DNA of 64,000 nt from Candidatus Poribacteria bacterium (GTDB lineage Bacteria; Poribacteria; WGA-4E; WGA-3G), in contig JAAXHL010000063.1 in assembly GCA_012270865.1 (NCBI GenBank), positions 1 to 64,000 on the forward strand, written 5' to 3'. Within the stretch, counting starts at the first letter, position 1. Every line of letters starts with the position of its first letter. The translations under genes were made by a program, and so were the position numbers. Shown one piece after another: positions 5,710 through 63,607 of the stretch. The notes beneath the pieces are model-generated. The model was not told the origin of the DNA. It saw nothing but the letters and a program-made list of their open reading frames with translations, and ran no database searches.

Positions 5710-6846
5710 ATGGCGCATGCATATACCCCCGGTCTTAAGGTTACCGAGGAAATGACTATTCAGAAAGAACGTCGGCTCCCGCTTGAAGGCGAGGTACTCG
5801 TCGAAGCTGGAGCAACCGTCAAGGCGGAGGATGTCGTCGCGAAGGCGGACCTGCCGGGCAACGTTCAACTGGTGAATGTTGCTAATCTACTCAGTGTTCC
5901 ACCGGAAGAGGTTGCGGAACATATACTTAAACCTGTCGGTGAAGCCGTCTCGGAAGACGAGGTTATTGCAACGACAAAAGGACTCTTTGGACTCTTCAAA
6001 TCGCAAGCACTTTCACCGATTGACGGTACGATTGAGTCAGTATCGGATATCACGGGTCAGGTAATCCTACGTGAACCGCCTATCCCTGTTGAAGTTAAAG
6101 CCTATACCGATGGAACGGTGACAGAGGTGCTTCCGAATGAAGGTGTCACGGTGGAGACTTATGGCACTTATATCCAAGGGATCTTCGGGATCGGTGGTGA
6201 GACGATTGGGAACCTGACCGTTGTTGCGGCATCGTCGAGCGATGCGTTGACTGCTGAACAGATAAAGTCTGAGCATCGGGATAACATTTTGGTCGGCGGT
6301 TCGCTGGTTACGACCGATGCCATTCAGAAGGCGATCCAAAACGGCGTTAAAGGGATCATCGCTGGTGGTATTGACGATGCGGATTTACGCGAACTACTCG
6401 GTTATGAACTCGGCGTTGCGATTACGGGTTCCGAGGAGATCGGGATCACGTTGGTTATCACAGAGGGGTTCGGGGAAATTTCGATGGCGGAACAGACGTT
6501 CACACTCCTGAAAGCGCGGGAAGGTATGAAGACCTCTATCAACGGTGCGACGCAGATTCGGGCAGGCGTTGTGCGTCCGGAGATAGTGATTCCATTCACG
6601 CCTGATACTGGAGCGTCAGCACCCGCCGCTGTGGACGGTGAAAAGGAAGGGATTTTGGAGGTTGGCAGTTCGGTACGCATCATCCGGGAACCCTATTTTG
6701 GGAAATTAGGACGCGTCACGGAGCTGCCGGTGGAGCTCCAGAATTTGGAGACAGAGGCGCAGGTACGGGTGTTGCGCGTCAGACTCGAAAACGGCGAGCA
6801 GACGACGCTGCCTCGTGCGAATGTTGAAGCGATTGAGGGGTCTTAA
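5710..6846 (+). CDS. Barrel-sandwich-hybrid protein with C-terminal KOW domain
   Basis: A 378-residue protein without a signal peptide. The N-terminal half resembles lipoyl/RnfC-type sandwich barrels: ERRLPLEGEVLVEAGATVKA, ALSPIDGTIESVSDITGQV, then KAYTDGTVTEVLPNEGVTVE. A central alpha/beta portion (NILVGGSLVTTDAIQKAIQN, GVKGIIAGGIDD) follows. A KOW-like motif (VGSSVRIIREPYFGKLGRV) lies at about residues 318-336. The combination suggests binding of a nucleic acid or a scaffold, but no enzyme activity can be assigned. It ends tail-to-tail with the FG-GAP gene, the two stop codons overlapping by four bases. Confidence 0.65.
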   Translation: MAHAYTPGLKVTEEMTIQKERRLPLEGEVLVEAGATVKAEDVVAKADLPGNVQLVNVANLLSVPPEEVAEHILKPVGEAVSEDEVIATTKGLFGLFKSQALSPIDGTIESVSDITGQVILREPPIPVEVKAYTDGTVTEVLPNEGVTVETYGTYIQGIFGIGGETIGNLTVVAASSSDALTAEQIKSEHRDNILVGGSLVTTDAIQKAIQNGVKGIIAGGIDDADLRELLGYELGVAITGSEEIGITLVITEGFGEISMAEQTFTLLKAREGMKTSINGATQIRAGVVRPEIVIPFTPDTGASAPAAVDGEKEGILEVGSSVRIIREPYFGKLGRVTELPVELQNLETEAQVRVLRVRLENGEQTTLPRANVEAIEGS

Positions 6847-57276: not shown

Positions 57277-57305
57277 ATTATAGTTAATTTAGGAAATTTT
57301 GTCAA
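57277..57305 (-). promoter_or_regulatory. Consensus sigma-70 promoter of the STAS gene
   Basis: Minus strand: TTGACA (57305-57300), 17-base spacer, TATAAT (57282-57277). Both hexamers are perfect. Confidence 0.8.
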
Positions 57306-57409: not shown

Positions 57410-57678
57410 TTATGCTGCCCAATCGGTACATAACACCTCTGCCTGCTCCAAGACGGTTTCAGCAGTTTCCTCTCGTTTGTCGGGTGGATAGCCGTGTTTG
57501 AGAAGGGTCCGCTTCACCATTTTCGTATATTCGCGCGGGCACTCTCTTTCATTGTCCAGTCAATGCTTACGCTTCGCCGAACGGTTTCTACAAGTTCAAC
57601 GGCGATGGTTCGTAGCGTCTCATCACCCAACACTTTGACGGTGCTATCCTTAACTTCGAGTGCGTCATAGAATGCCAA
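57410..57678 (-). pseudogene. Remnant of type I restriction enzyme HsdR C-terminus, frameshifted
   Basis: The minus strand reads [20 protein letters not shown], then [20 protein letters not shown] and [13 protein letters not shown] up to a TGA. One frame over, the text continues [20 protein letters not shown] and [16 protein letters not shown] to a stop at 57410. Joined, this matches the C-terminal ~85 residues of HsdR motor subunits. A single-base frameshift near 57.52 kb breaks it, and the other 90% of the gene is absent. It lies just downstream of the defence cassette. Confidence 0.8.
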
Positions 57679-57695
57679 TTATTGTCCTAACCAAG

Positions 57696-58322
57696 TTACA
57701 CCAACAATTCCTCTCCTACGCATGCCTTAAGCCCTTCAACAAACACTTGAAAACTTTTGGATCTATTTCGATCCGGTTCCATGTGTTGTGCTATGTTCTG
57801 TGCTACCGTAGGTTTGGGTATCCGTTCTCTAAAGTAGTTTTGTTGTATCAGTAAGCGTTCCAATGCCTCGTAAGTCCCACCCTGAATTGCGTCAGGGTTC
57901 CGGTATTTTCTCTTATATTGGAGGGTTTTCGGAATTCTCGGATAAGCCGTATGCAGAGCCTCAATGTCTCCAAAGAACCACGCCTCTAATTCCTCAATTG
58001 CTAACCGGTTGACAACCCGAAAATCTTCGTTTGGAACCGCGCTGGATTTCGTGACAAATCCTGCTGTGTGCGCTGCTTTTTCTAAATATGCCTTCAATTC
58101 GTGGCAATCTCTTCGGTCTTCATCAATAAGCACAATAATTCGCCAGTCATCAGGTATCCATTGGCGATAGATTTTCAATCGATCCGGTAGATTCTTAAGC
58201 AGATGTTCTTTACCTTTAAAGACGAAAAAATCGGAACTGATATTGCCTAAAAAAATCTTTGGTAAGATAGTTCTCAATACCGCTTCTACGGAAGGCTCTT
58301 CTAACAAAAATTCAAGATGCAC
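57696..58322 (-). CDS. DUF4276 TOPRIM-like protein
   Basis: About 208 residues. The opening VHLEFLLEEPSVEAVLRTIL and the acidic RIIVLIDEDRRDCHELKAYL match DUF4276. These proteins are predicted to have a TOPRIM-like nuclease fold, with Glu near the N-terminus and a D-x-D-type site (IDEDRRD). RLAIEELEAWFFGD is the other conserved block. A GTG at 58322 preceded by GAGG is taken as start; an ATG at 58349 has no Shine-Dalgarno. It overlaps the SEFIR-ATPase gene end and is presumably its partner, as in ATPase + TOPRIM defence systems. Confidence 0.8.
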   Translation of the reverse strand: MHLEFLLEEPSVEAVLRTILPKIFLGNISSDFFVFKGKEHLLKNLPDRLKIYRQWIPDDWRIIVLIDEDRRDCHELKAYLEKAAHTAGFVTKSSAVPNEDFRVVNRLAIEELEAWFFGDIEALHTAYPRIPKTLQYKRKYRNPDAIQGGTYEALERLLIQQNYFRERIPKPTVAQNIAQHMEPDRNRSKSFQVFVEGLKACVGEELLV

Positions 58323-59982
58323 GTCCACCTCGCTTTGGACCGCCTGCATTGGTCAATGGATCACCAAATTCAAAGTAACCTTCCATCCAGAGTTCACCCA
58401 ACTTAATGCTTGCTTCCATAAACGCATTGATTCCTAACATCTCTGATGCGCGTTTGCAGACTGTGAAGCCTTTTTCATCCCGATAGAGTACCCACACTTC
58501 CTCAGCCCGAAGTTCATTGACAAGCCGCGGTGAATGTGTGGTAATGATGAGTTGAGAAAACATTAACACCTCAAGAAACTCCCCGACTAAACCGGTCAAC
58601 AAGCGCGGGTGTAGATAGTTCTCGGGTTCCTCAATACCGATCAATTGTGGCGGTTTTGGGTCATGAAATAGCGTCAGGTACGACAGCAGCTTCAGCGTCC
58701 CATCGGAGGCGAACTTCGCCAAAATGGGTTGGTCAAACGGCGCATCTTTTATCTTTAGATGGCGGCGACCACCCATCATTAATTCTGTGTCTACCTTTTC
58801 TAAACGCGGCACCTGATTCGATAGAGAAGAGATAATTTTTTCCAAACGTTCTGGGTATCTTTCCTGAAAGTACTGGATAACGCTGGGCAAATTGTCGCCT
58901 GTGGGGGATAATCTTTTTTGTACCCCATCATTGGTTGCTTGGCGCGTGGCATCGGTAGAAAGGTCGGAGAGATGCCAATCTGTAATAAAACGCCGAAAGG
59001 CACTGACGCGCGGGTGATGTGTAGATTGACCAAATATACTTGCTGCGATCGTTGTGGGATCATCCAGTTGCTCATTAATTGGCGTGTCTGTTTTATCCGG
59101 TGTTTCGCCAGGGATTACGCTGCCCTTTCCGTGATGAAAATTGAGGAAACGCAGATGTTTTCCGCGACTCCCGCGCCGCCATTGCAGCCACTCGGTTTCA
59201 ACAAAGGGGCCTTCCGCATTTTCATTGATGGAAAGATGATAGGTGATAATCGGTGTTTTAGGTTCTTCGCGATATTTCAATTCAAATGCAATCGGTCCAT
59301 CACAGCCGAGTGTCCGCAGCTCCTTGAAACCTTCTCTTTTGTCCAAAGCACGGCGCAGCCCGTCCGTGAAACATTCCGCAAGGAACGCAAACGCATCAAA
59401 TAGTGTTGATTTTCCACTGCCGTTTGGACCTAAAAAGACAGACAACGGTTTGAGTTGTGTTAATTCTATATCCCGTAACACGCGGTAGTTTTTTATTCGC
59501 AATGACTCAATGTATGGAATCAATGGTTTTTGCAGCGGGGGTAGCAAGAGCCGGTCATAAAGGAGCTCCTCAAATTTTGCATCAAATTGGGTGTCGTCCG
59601 TAAAATCAACATAAGCTCGTTCTTTCAAAAATTCTGGTGTTTTATCCTCCAATTCTGTCTGGCGAATTATGGGTATGAATTTGTTAGTTCCGAGAGCTTC
59701 AACAAGTTTTCTTGTTACAATCATCGGCTCGTATCCAATGCTATCCTCACCATCATTTGCCTTGCTCACGTAACTATCCGTACAAATAACAAGAACCTTA
59801 TCAGAGTCCTTAAAACCGCGTTCTATGAATAGGGTAACATTATTATCTGGCCCGAGGTTCCATTGGTCAAGTATTGCATTAACACCATTGCGGCGGAGTC
59901 GTACAGCGAGTTCGGATACCCACTGCTTGAGTTTTGGCGTATCGTGGGAATATGAAATGAAAACCTTATGTGTTTCCATCAT
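58312..59982 (-). CDS. SEFIR domain fused to OLD/RecF-like ABC ATPase
   Basis: A 556-residue fusion. Residues ~5-145 form a SEFIR (TIR-like) domain: HKVFISYSHDTPKLKQWVSE and DKVLVICTDSYVSKANDGED. An ABC-type ATPase follows, with IESLRIKNYRVLRDIELTQL, Walker A GPNGSGKST (185-193), signature-like ASDGTLKLLSYL (425-436), Walker B QLIGIEEPEN (446-455) and the H-loop ITTHSP (480-485). The SEFIR part is closely related to that of the upstream gene. With DUF4276 downstream it resembles the ATPase + TOPRIM architecture of PARIS or AbiL, but with an added signalling domain. I infer phage defence. Confidence 0.85.
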   Translation of the reverse strand: MMETHKVFISYSHDTPKLKQWVSELAVRLRRNGVNAILDQWNLGPDNNVTLFIERGFKDSDKVLVICTDSYVSKANDGEDSIGYEPMIVTRKLVEALGTNKFIPIIRQTELEDKTPEFLKERAYVDFTDDTQFDAKFEELLYDRLLLPPLQKPLIPYIESLRIKNYRVLRDIELTQLKPLSVFLGPNGSGKSTLFDAFAFLAECFTDGLRRALDKREGFKELRTLGCDGPIAFELKYREEPKTPIITYHLSINENAEGPFVETEWLQWRRGSRGKHLRFLNFHHGKGSVIPGETPDKTDTPINEQLDDPTTIAASIFGQSTHHPRVSAFRRFITDWHLSDLSTDATRQATNDGVQKRLSPTGDNLPSVIQYFQERYPERLEKIISSLSNQVPRLEKVDTELMMGGRRHLKIKDAPFDQPILAKFASDGTLKLLSYLTLFHDPKPPQLIGIEEPENYLHPRLLTGLVGEFLEVLMFSQLIITTHSPRLVNELRAEEVWVLYRDEKGFTVCKRASEMLGINAFMEASIKLGELWMEGYFEFGDPLTNAGGPKRGGRAS

Positions 59983-60038
59983 CTTTGTATCTCCGATTTG
60001 AGGTGATTGTCAAAAGTTTCGAGCGATGATGACTAAAG

Positions 60039-61538
60039 TTACATACCCTCAAAGAAATATCGATAAAGATCAGAGAGATTTGGAAGCGATCTCTCATTTA
60101 AGGACGTGGACCTTATCAATGCTTTTTCAGTTAAGTCTATCCAATTTTTCCATAAACTTTCTACTTGCTGACGTGTAGCATTTACAGAAGTCCAAAGATC
60201 CACAATGGAGTTTGGGTTACGACGAAGTAGAGAAATTGCTTGCCGCGTTGTATCGTAGTCTTGAAAAAGAAAAGTCAACGGAATTCTAAAATAAAACTCG
60301 GAAGTGGTGTTTAACATATCCTCGCGACCTGCGCCAATTACCGTCGCTAATTCATGAATATGCAATGCCATGTAATATGCAACCAGTGAAGTCCGGTAGT
60401 TTTGTTCATCTTCAAATATATGAAATAACCATTCCCATCTTTTATAGGCGTTAATCAAATAGTTCCAACTTTCGAGACTATGTCCGCCACGTGTACCACT
60501 AATTGATTGAGCGTAACCTATAAATTCGCCCATTTCCCATAGATGAAAGAACTTTGTTCCACCTGCAACTGGAATTTTAGCTCGGGCAAGACCGAGGGCG
60601 AGATCTATTTGAGATGTATTTAGACAGACGCACCCGTGCAGGCTGTGATATACGTATCCTAACGCATTTGGGAGACGTATCCAAACTTCGTATCCAGCCG
60701 GATTCCATCCAACAACATTCAGCAAATCATCAAGCAAAGATTTTTGATCCCTAAATTCTTCCCTACCGGATTCGACTCCCACTAACGCAATAGTCATTAA
60801 GGGAGAAACAATTTCAACTGCCTTATCCACAATTTGAACTAATTGTTCTTTGCTTTCAGGTTTTTGTCCATCTAATTCACCTTGCCGCCATTGGACCAAG
60901 TCTTTAAATGCCTTTGGTCGAATTTGCTTGACAAGTTCCCTCCATCCAAGTGTATCTCCTGCACGGACGAGTTTAGACGCTGTTTTGTAAGCCTCGGATG
61001 TGGATTCAACGTGCTCCGGAATATCAGTCAGTTGTGTATCTAATTCTACAGAAGGAAATGGGCTTTTTCCCAAAGGAGGCTTCTCTATAATTGGCATTTC
61101 GTGGAGTTCACGAATTAATTTTTCACATTCCGCGTCGAATTGGTTGTCATTTGTAAAGTCAGCATAAACGCGTGTTCCTAAAAATGTTGGTGTTTTTGCT
61201 TTTCGTGATGCCTGACGGATAATGGGTATGAATTTGTCTGTCCCTAAATTCTGAACAAGTTCAGCGTTTACAATCATCCGCTCGTAGCCGACACCGCCTT
61301 CGTCAGCATTTGCCTTGCTCACATATTTATCTGTGCAAATAACCAGCACCCTATCAGCGTTCACGATGCCATGTTCCATAAATCGTGTTACATCATCGCC
61401 CAGTCCAAGATCCCATTGGTCAAGTATTGCATCGATCCCATCACGGCGAAGTCGCGCAGCAAGTTCGGATACCCACTGCTTGTGCTCTGGAGAATCGTGA
61501 GAATATGAAATGAACACTTTAGGATTTTTCGCCATCAT
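60039..61538 (-). CDS. SEFIR-domain protein (bSEFIR-like)
   Basis: A 499-residue protein. Residues ~6-146 are a SEFIR domain (KVFISYSHDSPEHKQWVSEL, DRVLVICTDKYVSKANADEG, TDKFIPIIRQAS). The rest is helical and Trp-rich (WKNWIDLTEKALIR, YRTSLVAYYMALHIHELATV) with no family I recognise; it may sense infection. Single SEFIR proteins are known anti-phage factors. Its start overlaps the AlbA_2 gene stop by four bases (ATGA). The SEFIR parts of this and the next gene are about 65% identical by eye, so they arose by duplication. Confidence 0.82.
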   Translation of the reverse strand: MMAKNPKVFISYSHDSPEHKQWVSELAARLRRDGIDAILDQWDLGLGDDVTRFMEHGIVNADRVLVICTDKYVSKANADEGGVGYERMIVNAELVQNLGTDKFIPIIRQASRKAKTPTFLGTRVYADFTNDNQFDAECEKLIRELHEMPIIEKPPLGKSPFPSVELDTQLTDIPEHVESTSEAYKTASKLVRAGDTLGWRELVKQIRPKAFKDLVQWRQGELDGQKPESKEQLVQIVDKAVEIVSPLMTIALVGVESGREEFRDQKSLLDDLLNVVGWNPAGYEVWIRLPNALGYVYHSLHGCVCLNTSQIDLALGLARAKIPVAGGTKFFHLWEMGEFIGYAQSISGTRGGHSLESWNYLINAYKRWEWLFHIFEDEQNYRTSLVAYYMALHIHELATVIGAGREDMLNTTSEFYFRIPLTFLFQDYDTTRQAISLLRRNPNSIVDLWTSVNATRQQVESLWKNWIDLTEKALIRSTSLNERSLPNLSDLYRYFFEGM

Positions 61539-63289
61539 TTTTCATCTCCTTTGGTATAAGCGCGATATTCCAGTAGTGCCGATTTGCCGATGATGTCAAT
61601 GATGCGAACTATTAATTCTTTTCCATCAGTATCAGTAAGTAGTAAATCCTCCCCCGGAACGAAATGCGTCGGCTGCTTTTGTCCTTTATTTATCGCAATG
61701 TTAGAGGTATAGAGAAAAGGTCGATCATAAGGGTCACGAATCAGATTTATTTTTCCTGACAAGCCTGGCAGATTGCCCTTACCTTCAGGAAAGAGTGCTG
61801 AACCCCCTTTATGCAGAGATTGCATTTTAACGGTAAGTTTGCCTTGTGTTGGCACCCAATTGTGTTTAAGATATGCGGTGCAACCATCTGCAGTTACGAA
61901 TACGGTCATCGGCAGATTTACGGCGGGCAATTTGATATGTACATTACCACCGCCAGCGGTGAACCTGTGTGCCACCACATGATTCTGAAACAGGATTAAT
62001 ACATCTACTTTCCGGAGGGTAGAATCTGGCAGATCGCATTGGACAGAAGCCTCTACGCGTGTCACTTCAGTGGCAGCTGCTGGAATTGTGAGAATAAGTT
62101 CAGAATCATCTATGAGTTTATACCGAGGCGATTTTCCACTTAAAGCCTTCGTTTCGCGAAAAATGATTGGCACGCCGTCTCCGCGTCTTTCCATGAAGAA
62201 TTGTCGATCTCCTGATCCTCGGATGCTTTCAACAGGTATTCGGCCGAGCATTGAGGTAAGTGCGTCGTTTCGCGTTGATTGGCGTACTTCCATACTATCA
62301 ATTGTGAGGTTGTTTGGTAGGTTGCCGGGAGAATTAATTTCAATGCGGTCTATGAACATCGAGAGCCGAATCTTACTACCCTGCATTGTGTAATCGCGAT
62401 GGGCAACCGCGTTGACGATTGCCTCAAAGAGTGCCTTTTCACTGTATTGCGGTAGGTCAATGCGAGCGGGATTTTTGTATGCCCCGACACGCATGTTGCG
62501 CACAGCGAAGACAACCGCTTCAGCAATTTGTCGGTTCAAGGGTCCTGTAATTGTTTGTGCGTCTATCTGCCCGGATGCCTTATCTGCTCCTTGATAGTAA
62601 GTTGCAGTGATACAAGCGTTGGGGAGCCATTCCTCTGGAGAGCGGGTGCACAAAAGAATGCCTGCTACAGTTGCCCGTGTTGTGTCGTTTTCATCGTTGG
62701 TCAGAAGCCCCATCTTTTCCAACGCCAATTCAGGTGCCGCAGCACCCTCGACACTCAGCAGTGGTTTCCAAAGGGATTCATCTAAGGATCCAAAGCCTGT
62801 TCCCGGAACCGGCTGCTTGTCAAACCAAAGAAAGCGTGATTGTGCGCGCTGTTGCGCAAGACGCAGCCGTTCATCACTCGTCATCGGACGTTTTGAGCTG
62901 CCAACTCGGTGGTAACTACCGCCAGGGCTGTCGTGTTGTGTGTCGCCTCGCTCAACTTGGACAACCAAGAACGGTCTGCCTTCTTCTATCTCCCTACGAA
63001 CGATAATAGGTCGGATAGGTGGCTCAATCTTGTCGGTGCAAACCTCAGTCAAGAGTCGTTCCAGTGCATCCATTTGCTCGCGCGACATGCCTTGAACATC
63101 TCCACTGTCGGTTACACCACACAATAGCACACCACCAGCCGTATTGGCAAATGCGGCGAGTTCATTTGCGAGATCGTCCCGACGCGGACTCTTGGGAACA
63201 TTTCCTGCGAACACTATTTCCTTGAATTCCCAGTGGCTATCTTCACCTAAGCGGATGTGGCGTTTGATTTCTTCGTCACTGAAATTCAT
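61535..63289 (-). CDS. AlbA_2/Schlafen-type protein with ATP-binding-like domain
   Basis: A 584-residue protein. Residues ~10-135 form the AlbA_2 (Schlafen core) domain: EDSHWEFKEIVFAG (Glu 21, Lys 23), LANELAAFANTAGGVLLCGV, then SYHRVGSSKRPMT. Residues ~170-330 resemble the HATPase-like module of such proteins (ALFEAIVNAVAHRDYTMQGS, HRDY at 297-300). The C-terminal 200 residues are beta-rich and unlike anything I know. GGAGAGG precedes the ATG, whose bases overlap the small upstream ORF. In other bacteria this family occurs in defence islands. Confidence 0.8.
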   Translation of the reverse strand: MNFSDEEIKRHIRLGEDSHWEFKEIVFAGNVPKSPRRDDLANELAAFANTAGGVLLCGVTDSGDVQGMSREQMDALERLLTEVCTDKIEPPIRPIIVRREIEEGRPFLVVQVERGDTQHDSPGGSYHRVGSSKRPMTSDERLRLAQQRAQSRFLWFDKQPVPGTGFGSLDESLWKPLLSVEGAAAPELALEKMGLLTNDENDTTRATVAGILLCTRSPEEWLPNACITATYYQGADKASGQIDAQTITGPLNRQIAEAVVFAVRNMRVGAYKNPARIDLPQYSEKALFEAIVNAVAHRDYTMQGSKIRLSMFIDRIEINSPGNLPNNLTIDSMEVRQSTRNDALTSMLGRIPVESIRGSGDRQFFMERRGDGVPIIFRETKALSGKSPRYKLIDDSELILTIPAAATEVTRVEASVQCDLPDSTLRKVDVLILFQNHVVAHRFTAGGGNVHIKLPAVNLPMTVFVTADGCTAYLKHNWVPTQGKLTVKMQSLHKGGSALFPEGKGNLPGLSGKINLIRDPYDRPFLYTSNIAINKGQKQPTHFVPGEDLLLTDTDGKELIVRIIDIIGKSALLEYRAYTKGDEK

Positions 63290-63393
63290 GAGTCCTCTCC
63301 GAATCCGAGCATTTGCAAATTTTTCGCGATAGCATCATCTAATCGCCTTGCCTCTGCCATTTTATTTGTGTTTGTGTCTGATTTTTTTCCCAT
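63286..63393 (-). CDS. 35-codon first ORF of the defence cassette, HsdM-tail-like
   Basis: Encodes MGKKSDTNTNKMAEARRLDD and AIAKNLQMLGFGEDS. The second half resembles the extreme C-terminus of type I methyltransferase subunits (R-L-D-x-x-I-A-x-N-L-x-x-L-G-F/Y-G). Its TGA overlaps the AlbA_2 ATG, so translation is coupled. No clear Shine-Dalgarno precedes it, but a promoter lies 72 bases upstream. It may be a leader peptide or a relic of hsdM. Confidence 0.5.
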   Translation of the reverse strand: MGKKSDTNTNKMAEARRLDDAIAKNLQMLGFGEDS

Positions 63394-63464
63394 AATTTTT
63401 TTACAAGGTCCTATTACAAGTCTACAAAACAAAAACACCTTGGGTAACGAATCATTTCCTTAAA

Positions 63465-63493
63465 ATGATACCACATTTGGCATAGAAATTCAA
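63465..63493 (-). promoter_or_regulatory. Probable promoter of the defence cassette
   Basis: Minus strand: TTGAAT (63493-63488), 17-base spacer, TATCAT (63470-63465). Four and five of six consensus matches. It would start transcription about 65 bases before the small ORF. Confidence 0.5.
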
Positions 63494-63607
63494 CGGTTTT
63501 AATTGCGGAATATAGGCGTTGATTGCCCGAATTATGGGGAAAGAATGGTAGAAGAACACGGATTGAGGGGTGCGGTTGGTGACCGCACCCGCTTTTGGAG
63601 ATACTAT

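Follow-up and report, generated by a model that had tools for sequence, protein, structure and literature searches.

Reportedly, bSEFIR was described by Millman et al. in 2022 as a single-gene SEFIR defence protein; the name itself gave no match in the literature searched. SEFIR defence systems have been described as NAD+-depleting (PMC12774641, PMC12322248). PARIS (i.e. AriA/AriB), AbiL and the OLD nucleases combine an ABC-type ATPase with a TOPRIM-like partner, which in PARIS and AbiL belongs to the AriB or RloB (i.e. AbiLii) family. HEC-01, the Hma-embedded candidate 01 (Payne et al. 2024 preprint, in the part of PMC12988326 that cites it), consists of an AAA_21 ATPase followed by a DUF4276 protein. 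Neither an anti-phage test of HEC-01 nor a useful paper on DUF4276 in defence was found in the literature searched. Defence genes that sit inside other defence operons are known from the HEC and PDC candidates (Payne et al. 2024, as far as it is cited in PMC12988326), and DarTG2 has been reported between hsdS and hsdR of type I restriction-modification (R-M) (PMC12255303).

The window analysed here, a 64,000-nucleotide stretch of a Candidatus Poribacteria contig (JAAXHL010000063.1), contains a cassette that resembles each of these systems in part (Table 1). The g3 protein is like bSEFIR in its N-terminal SEFIR domain, its match to the PADLOC model and the Tyr-Glu of TIR-type NADases, but here a second, 59% identical SEFIR domain is carried by the neighbouring ATPase. 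An ABC-type ATPase with a TOPRIM-like partner is shared with PARIS, AbiL and the OLD nucleases, whereas this partner is a DUF4276 protein. The ATPase and DUF4276 genes follow each other as in HEC-01 and, in relatives, are likewise embedded within another defence system; unlike HEC-01, the ATPase of the window has an N-terminal SEFIR domain and lies behind a SEFIR gene in a type I R-M operon that is deleted here. As for DarTG2, the trio of relatives (i.e. g3, SEFIR-HEC-01A and HEC-01B) sits between hsdS and hsdR, but the cargo is different and the R-M genes of the window are themselves gone. bSEFIR and HEC-01 are already described separately, and the SEFIR-fused variant in a decayed R-M context is new. 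The first-pass annotation knew of no described system with this set; within it, the ATPase and DUF4276 protein are the described candidate HEC-01, and no description of a SEFIR-HEC-01A fusion was found in the literature searched.

Table 1. Positions of the cassette features within the window.
Feature	Position	Strand	Description
Conserved promoter block	63460..63497	-	38 bp, TTGAAT-17-TATCAT, extended -10; behind sulfatase gene
hsdM scar (35-codon ORF of the first-pass annotation)	63286..63393	-	HsdM codons 1-11 + last 24 codons + stop
g2	61535..63289	-	584 aa, SLFN_AlbA_2 + RecG-C-like HATPase_c_4
AlbA_2/SEFIR deletion join	61527..61550	-	AlbA_2 stop overlapping SEFIR start; sequence GGAGATGAAAAATGATGG
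g3	60039..61538	-	499 aa, bSEFIR-like; SEFIR about aa 1-155 + helical C-terminal region
g4	58312..59982	-	556 aa, SEFIR aa 1-153 + HEC-01A AAA_21 ATPase aa 156-541
g5	57696..58349	-	217 aa, HEC-01B, DUF4276, TOPRIM-like
hsdR stub	57410..57683	-	Final 274 bp of hsdR (T1RH-like_C), frame broken

Gene content of the cassette

All ORFs were confirmed, and examination of ORFs and family matches placed the AlbA_2, SEFIR, SEFIR-ATPase and DUF4276 genes on one strand with tight junctions, as had been annotated in the first pass. Transcription on the minus strand runs from the 35-codon ORF through g2, g3 and g4 to g5. The 35-codon ORF and g2, as well as g2 and g3, are joined by ATGA overlaps; g3 and g4 are separated by 56 bp, and g4 and g5 overlap by 38 bp. 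Assignment of the genes to defence was borne out by matches in Pfam and PADLOC, g2 matching SLFN_AlbA_2 (5e-21) and the RecG-C HATPase_c_4 family. Chance or a frame artefact was ruled out for the four large ORFs by strong family matches together with dN/dS values well below 1. The 35-codon ORF, which had been counted as a gene of the system, is what remains of hsdM after fusion of its two ends.

The cassette is made up of passengers of a type I R-M locus

Relatives were searched for in 85 genomes of the window's phylum, and close relatives were located in Candidatus Poribacteria contigs, the evidence coming mostly from MAGs. The cassette proved to consist of the passenger genes of a type I R-M locus, which in Poribacteria occupies a fixed chromosomal site between a sulfatase gene on the upstream side and STAS and DUF6807 genes on the downstream side. 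Full loci (i.e. L032, L034, L039, L047, L064 and others) start with hsdM, followed by AlbA_2, a small ORF/NTase_sub_bind gene, hsdS, the SEFIR gene, SEFIR-HEC-01A, HEC-01B and hsdR. Pfam identified HsdM (N6_Mtase, 7e-108, with HsdM_N), HsdS (Methylase_S, 9e-23) and HsdR (HSDR_N, SWI2_SNF2 and T1RH-like_C, 7e-132) in these relatives. Where relatives have intact hsdM, hsdS and hsdR genes, the window has a scar, no gene and a stub, respectively.

Three deletions, all of them located at short repeats or close to them, removed hsdM, hsdS and most of hsdR from the window and left the passengers intact. Positions 63416-63356 align to the region around the hsdM start in L039 and 63360-63286 to the 3' end of hsdM. 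The first 11 codons (63393-63361) and the last 24 codons plus stop (63360-63286) read as one joined frame, MGKKSDTNTNK followed by MAEARRLDDAIAKNLQMLGFGEDS, where the two parts meet at an ATGGC repeat. This deletion is in frame and preserved the overlap with the next gene. No close hsdM was found elsewhere in the window's genome, which is a draft of 223 contigs. The second deletion took hsdS and its small neighbour gene, and the AlbA_2 stop and SEFIR start, 1.5-2 kb apart in relatives, consequently meet in an ATGA overlap in the window. The hsdR remnant (57683-57410) is 87-90% identical to its nearest relatives and is joined just past the g5 stop. Annotation by spacing would fall into a trap here, as the tight gene overlaps were created by deletion and do not reflect one ancestral operon. 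A role of the passengers as guards that kill upon R-M loss is unlikely, since they are intact without R-M in the window, L037, L062 and L104.

Other rearrangements were seen at this site. In L037, the bases ahead of the SEFIR start (about 6420-6433; GAGATGAAAAATGA) equal those of the AlbA_2/SEFIR deletion join of the window (61535-61550) although AlbA_2 of L037 now sits downstream. In L033 (1853-4765), the AlbA_2 gene has lost its AlbA_2 domain by deletion, and hsdM continues in frame into the remaining RecG-C part, giving a 970-aa ORF. In L032 (4359-6366), a Polbeta/MNT nucleotidyltransferase domain (PF18765) precedes Methylase_S within one HsdS ORF of 540-560 aa, and the preceding ORF encodes an NTase_sub_bind (PF08780) protein. 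Such MNT-HsdS-like ORFs recur at this site in about a dozen loci, e.g. L036, L040, L044, L047, L063 and L094; NTase_sub_bind and MNT-HsdS are apparently a HEPN/MNT-like pair whose MNT part has been fused to HsdS.

A conserved promoter anchors an interchangeable slot

A promoter-like TTGAAT-17-TATCAT sequence lies at 63493-63465. Promoter-like sites were no more frequent across the whole region than expected by chance. Relatives match the 38-bp block around this one at 25-38 of 38 positions, as compared to a best score of 23 in shuffled sequence. The block occurs in about 25 loci, nearly all those of the site, with nothing above background in L046 and L102. The first gene behind it is interchangeable, being hsdM, the hsdM scar (in the window), a SEFIR gene (L037, L062), HEC-01A (L042) or AlbA_2 (L104), a pattern that suggests several losses of the R-M genes, each sparing different passengers. 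No hsdM scar is present in L037, L042 and L062, for which the R-M-free state may be ancestral. A separate, perfect consensus sigma-70 promoter (TTGACA-17-TATAAT, 12/12) occurs on the minus strand at 57277-57305, before the STAS gene (57184-56831).

The bSEFIR-like gene and the SEFIR-HEC-01 pair form a trio

In L062, g3, SEFIR-HEC-01A and HEC-01B stand alone behind the same promoter with intact frames and without R-M or AlbA_2 genes, showing that this trio is a self-contained unit. The first-pass annotation had proposed a search of many genomes for co-occurrence of the four large proteins, and this search upheld the pairing of the two SEFIR genes but not the inclusion of AlbA_2, which elsewhere is displaced, solitary or absent. 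A g3 gene adjoins HEC-01A in 13/14 loci with a SEFIR-fused HEC-01A vs 1/26 unfused loci, a difference (Fisher, 1.6e-8) that rests on only 3-5 independent fusion changes on the tree, with fused forms not being one clade (AU p 0.02). As so few independent changes underlie it, the association is only suggestive and may not be taken as independent proof of coupling. Among the 13 fused loci, the g3 of L054 has lost its SEFIR domain, and the sole unfused locus with an adjoining g3, L049, has a broken copy.

The only fused HEC-01A without g3 is that of L035, in which g5 is also lost and an Asp occupies the Glu position. The SEFIR domain of this gene (L035:8001-9668) is a hybrid, with the first ~35 codons g3-like, the first 96 bp being 92.7% identical to g3 of the window, and the remainder g4-like. 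This pattern suggests that the two SEFIR copies may have recombined in L035 and that g3 was lost by this route.

Constraint differs between the two SEFIR domains

Matches of g3 were to SEFIR (PF08357, 9.3e-16), TIR_2 (5e-24) and, over aa 2-234, the PADLOC bSEFIR model (8.5e-79); the nearest solved structure to the SEFIR domain was 5y8e. Tyr-Glu is kept in all g3 sequences, with E86 present in 18/18, and the putative catalytic Glu, as placed by alignment, is kept in 13/14 g4 SEFIR domains. D40, W42, G47 or R63, which never vary in g3, are lost in several g4 SEFIR domains. Domain-wise dN/dS values were 0.08 for the g3 SEFIR domain, 0.26 for the g3 C-terminal part, 0.20 for the g4 SEFIR domain, 0.12 for HEC-01A and 0.15 for g5, with synonymous divergence broadly similar across domains. 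The g3 C-terminal region is predicted, with low confidence (pLDDT 63), to have a helical fold, and a search of g3 against PDB structures gave no match beyond the SEFIR part. Under this distribution of constraint, the g3 SEFIR domain fits a working or assembly role, the variable g3 region that of reading a changing cue, and the g4 SEFIR domain that of an adaptor. As a conserved Glu is present in both SEFIR domains, NAD+ cleavage may be a further output.

The ATPase and its partner belong to HEC-01

Besides its SEFIR domain, g4 matches AAA_21 (4e-31). The ATPase part scored highest, among defence ATPase models, against PADLOC HEC-01A (495.6 bits, 2.6e-149), a model of about 400 aa that g4 exceeds by its N-terminal SEFIR domain of about 153 aa. 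Unrelated defence ATPase models, AriA and AbiLi, gave 103 and 97 bits, respectively. Across 22 sequences there is no variation in the Walker A (NGSGK), EEPEN or TTH motif. For g5, matches were obtained to DUF4276 (PF14103, 3.1e-31) and HEC-01B (2.3e-83), and the TOPRIM residues E17 and D76xD78 are invariant in 20 sequences. The closest PDB match to the predicted g5 model (pLDDT 85) was the OLD C-terminal region, at a moderate level (E 1.2e-3, TM 0.48-0.50). On this model g5 is TOPRIM-like and nearest to OLD, as foreseen when the ATPase was annotated as paired with a TOPRIM-like protein, and a nuclease role is proposed for it; judged by their families, g4 and g5 would form an ATPase-TOPRIM nuclease. 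Membership of PARIS or AbiL was rejected because the HEC-01 models score ~5-fold higher in bits and g5 matches only DUF4276/HEC-01B.

Proposed mechanism and alternatives

Our favoured reading, with a probability of roughly one half, is of an R-M passenger set in which the trio is the functional unit, g3 being the sensor, SEFIR-SEFIR contact recruiting or activating the ATPase-TOPRIM nuclease, and AlbA_2 acting independently. An infection cue would be sensed by the helical, rapidly evolving C-terminal region of g3, and g3 would assemble through its own SEFIR domain. The more divergent SEFIR domain of g4 would then join this assembly, and its joining would bring in or switch on the ATPase-TOPRIM nuclease for an attack on nucleic acid, possibly with NAD+ loss as an added output. 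Both abortive infection and direct SEFIR contacts are features that we infer. The specific proposal of a hybrid system, in which a SEFIR domain was copied onto the ATPase and heterotypic SEFIR-SEFIR assembly couples a bSEFIR-type sensor to the HEC-01 ATPase-TOPRIM nuclease, is advanced tentatively as a real possibility. If true, two defence modules merged when a copy of a shared adhesive domain was added to the partner, within an R-M operon since discarded, and one known module is coupled to the effector of another in the manner of adaptor domains in animal immunity. The natural configurations behind one promoter (i.e. the trio, HEC-01 or AlbA_2 alone, and the SEFIR gene alone in an R-M locus) are a ready comparison set that makes SEFIR-SEFIR coupling directly testable.

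Coupling is opposed by loci of this site at which either module is present and the other missing. In L063 and L065, g3 lies between hsdS and hsdR without HEC-01, an arrangement that would allow putative single-gene action of g3, and HEC-01 without SEFIR occurs in most Poribacterial loci as well as in cyanobacteria and the phylum of L059. These occurrences, and the retention of Glu in nearly all g4 SEFIR domains, agree with two independent systems sharing one slot, namely a bSEFIR-type NADase (g3) and a HEC-01 with its own SEFIR effector domain, without g3-g4 contact. Such independence is rather unlikely, as the SEFIR domain on HEC-01A and g3 co-occur across loci and the losses at D40, W42, G47 and R63 fit binding more than an enzymatic role. 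Signal flow might also be reversed, with the HEC-01 ATPase complex sensing phage DNA or a DNA end and its SEFIR domain nucleating g3 as an NAD+-destroying effector. The NAD+ depletion described for SEFIR defence proteins, the invariant Tyr-Glu of g3 and the position of its SEFIR domain as the most constrained of all domains favour this direction. It is nonetheless unlikely, because fast evolution, which a sensor would be expected to show, is seen in the C-terminal region of g3, and the TOPRIM residues of g5 are kept in all sequences, so that the nuclease is likewise constrained.

Decay of the whole island, with the remaining genes inactive and on their way out after loss of hsdM, hsdS and hsdR, would explain why R-M genes are deleted or frame-broken in the window and why members are broken in L041, L045, L049, L101 and L102. 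This explanation is very improbable, given four full-length ORFs with intact motifs and an in-frame hsdM deletion that kept the overlap with the following gene; pairwise dN/dS values of 0.10-0.28 also oppose it, but are averaged over time preceding the deletions.

Judging from its distribution, the AlbA_2 gene is in all probability an independent passenger of the R-M locus outside the SEFIR/HEC-01 unit. L104 has it as a solitary gene and L102 next to degraded R-M genes, in L037 and L052 it lies downstream, L036, L054 and L062 lack it, and it follows hsdM in loci without any SEFIR; across relatives it is not obligately linked to the SEFIR and ATPase genes. The first-pass reading of one five-gene system including AlbA_2 and the small ORF, drawn from adjacency and translational overlaps in the window and consistent with the presence of AlbA_2 at most fused loci, is hardly credible, since the small ORF is an hsdM scar, AlbA_2 is separable, and AlbA_2-SEFIR adjacency was made by deletion of the hsdS that separates them in intact loci.

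Distribution and precedents

Outside Poribacteria, SEFIR-HEC-01A fusions were absent from the plasmids, phages and viral contigs searched, from 339 cyanobacterial genomes and from 350 genomes of the phylum of L059. No second SEFIR gene was found adjoining the SEFIR genes of viral contigs. On a Meiothermus taiwanensis plasmid (L129; NZ_CP021131.1 49830-61026), hsdS and hsdR enclose a HEC-01 pair that is preceded by a DarTG-like pair of DUF4433 and macro-domain genes; the hsdS-hsdR gap holds different defence cargo in another phylum. A second Poribacterial context of HEC-01, with no R-M genes, was observed in L051, L053, L056 and L061, where the pair always lies behind a gene for a ~1160-aa protein and ahead of ~270-aa paralogues.
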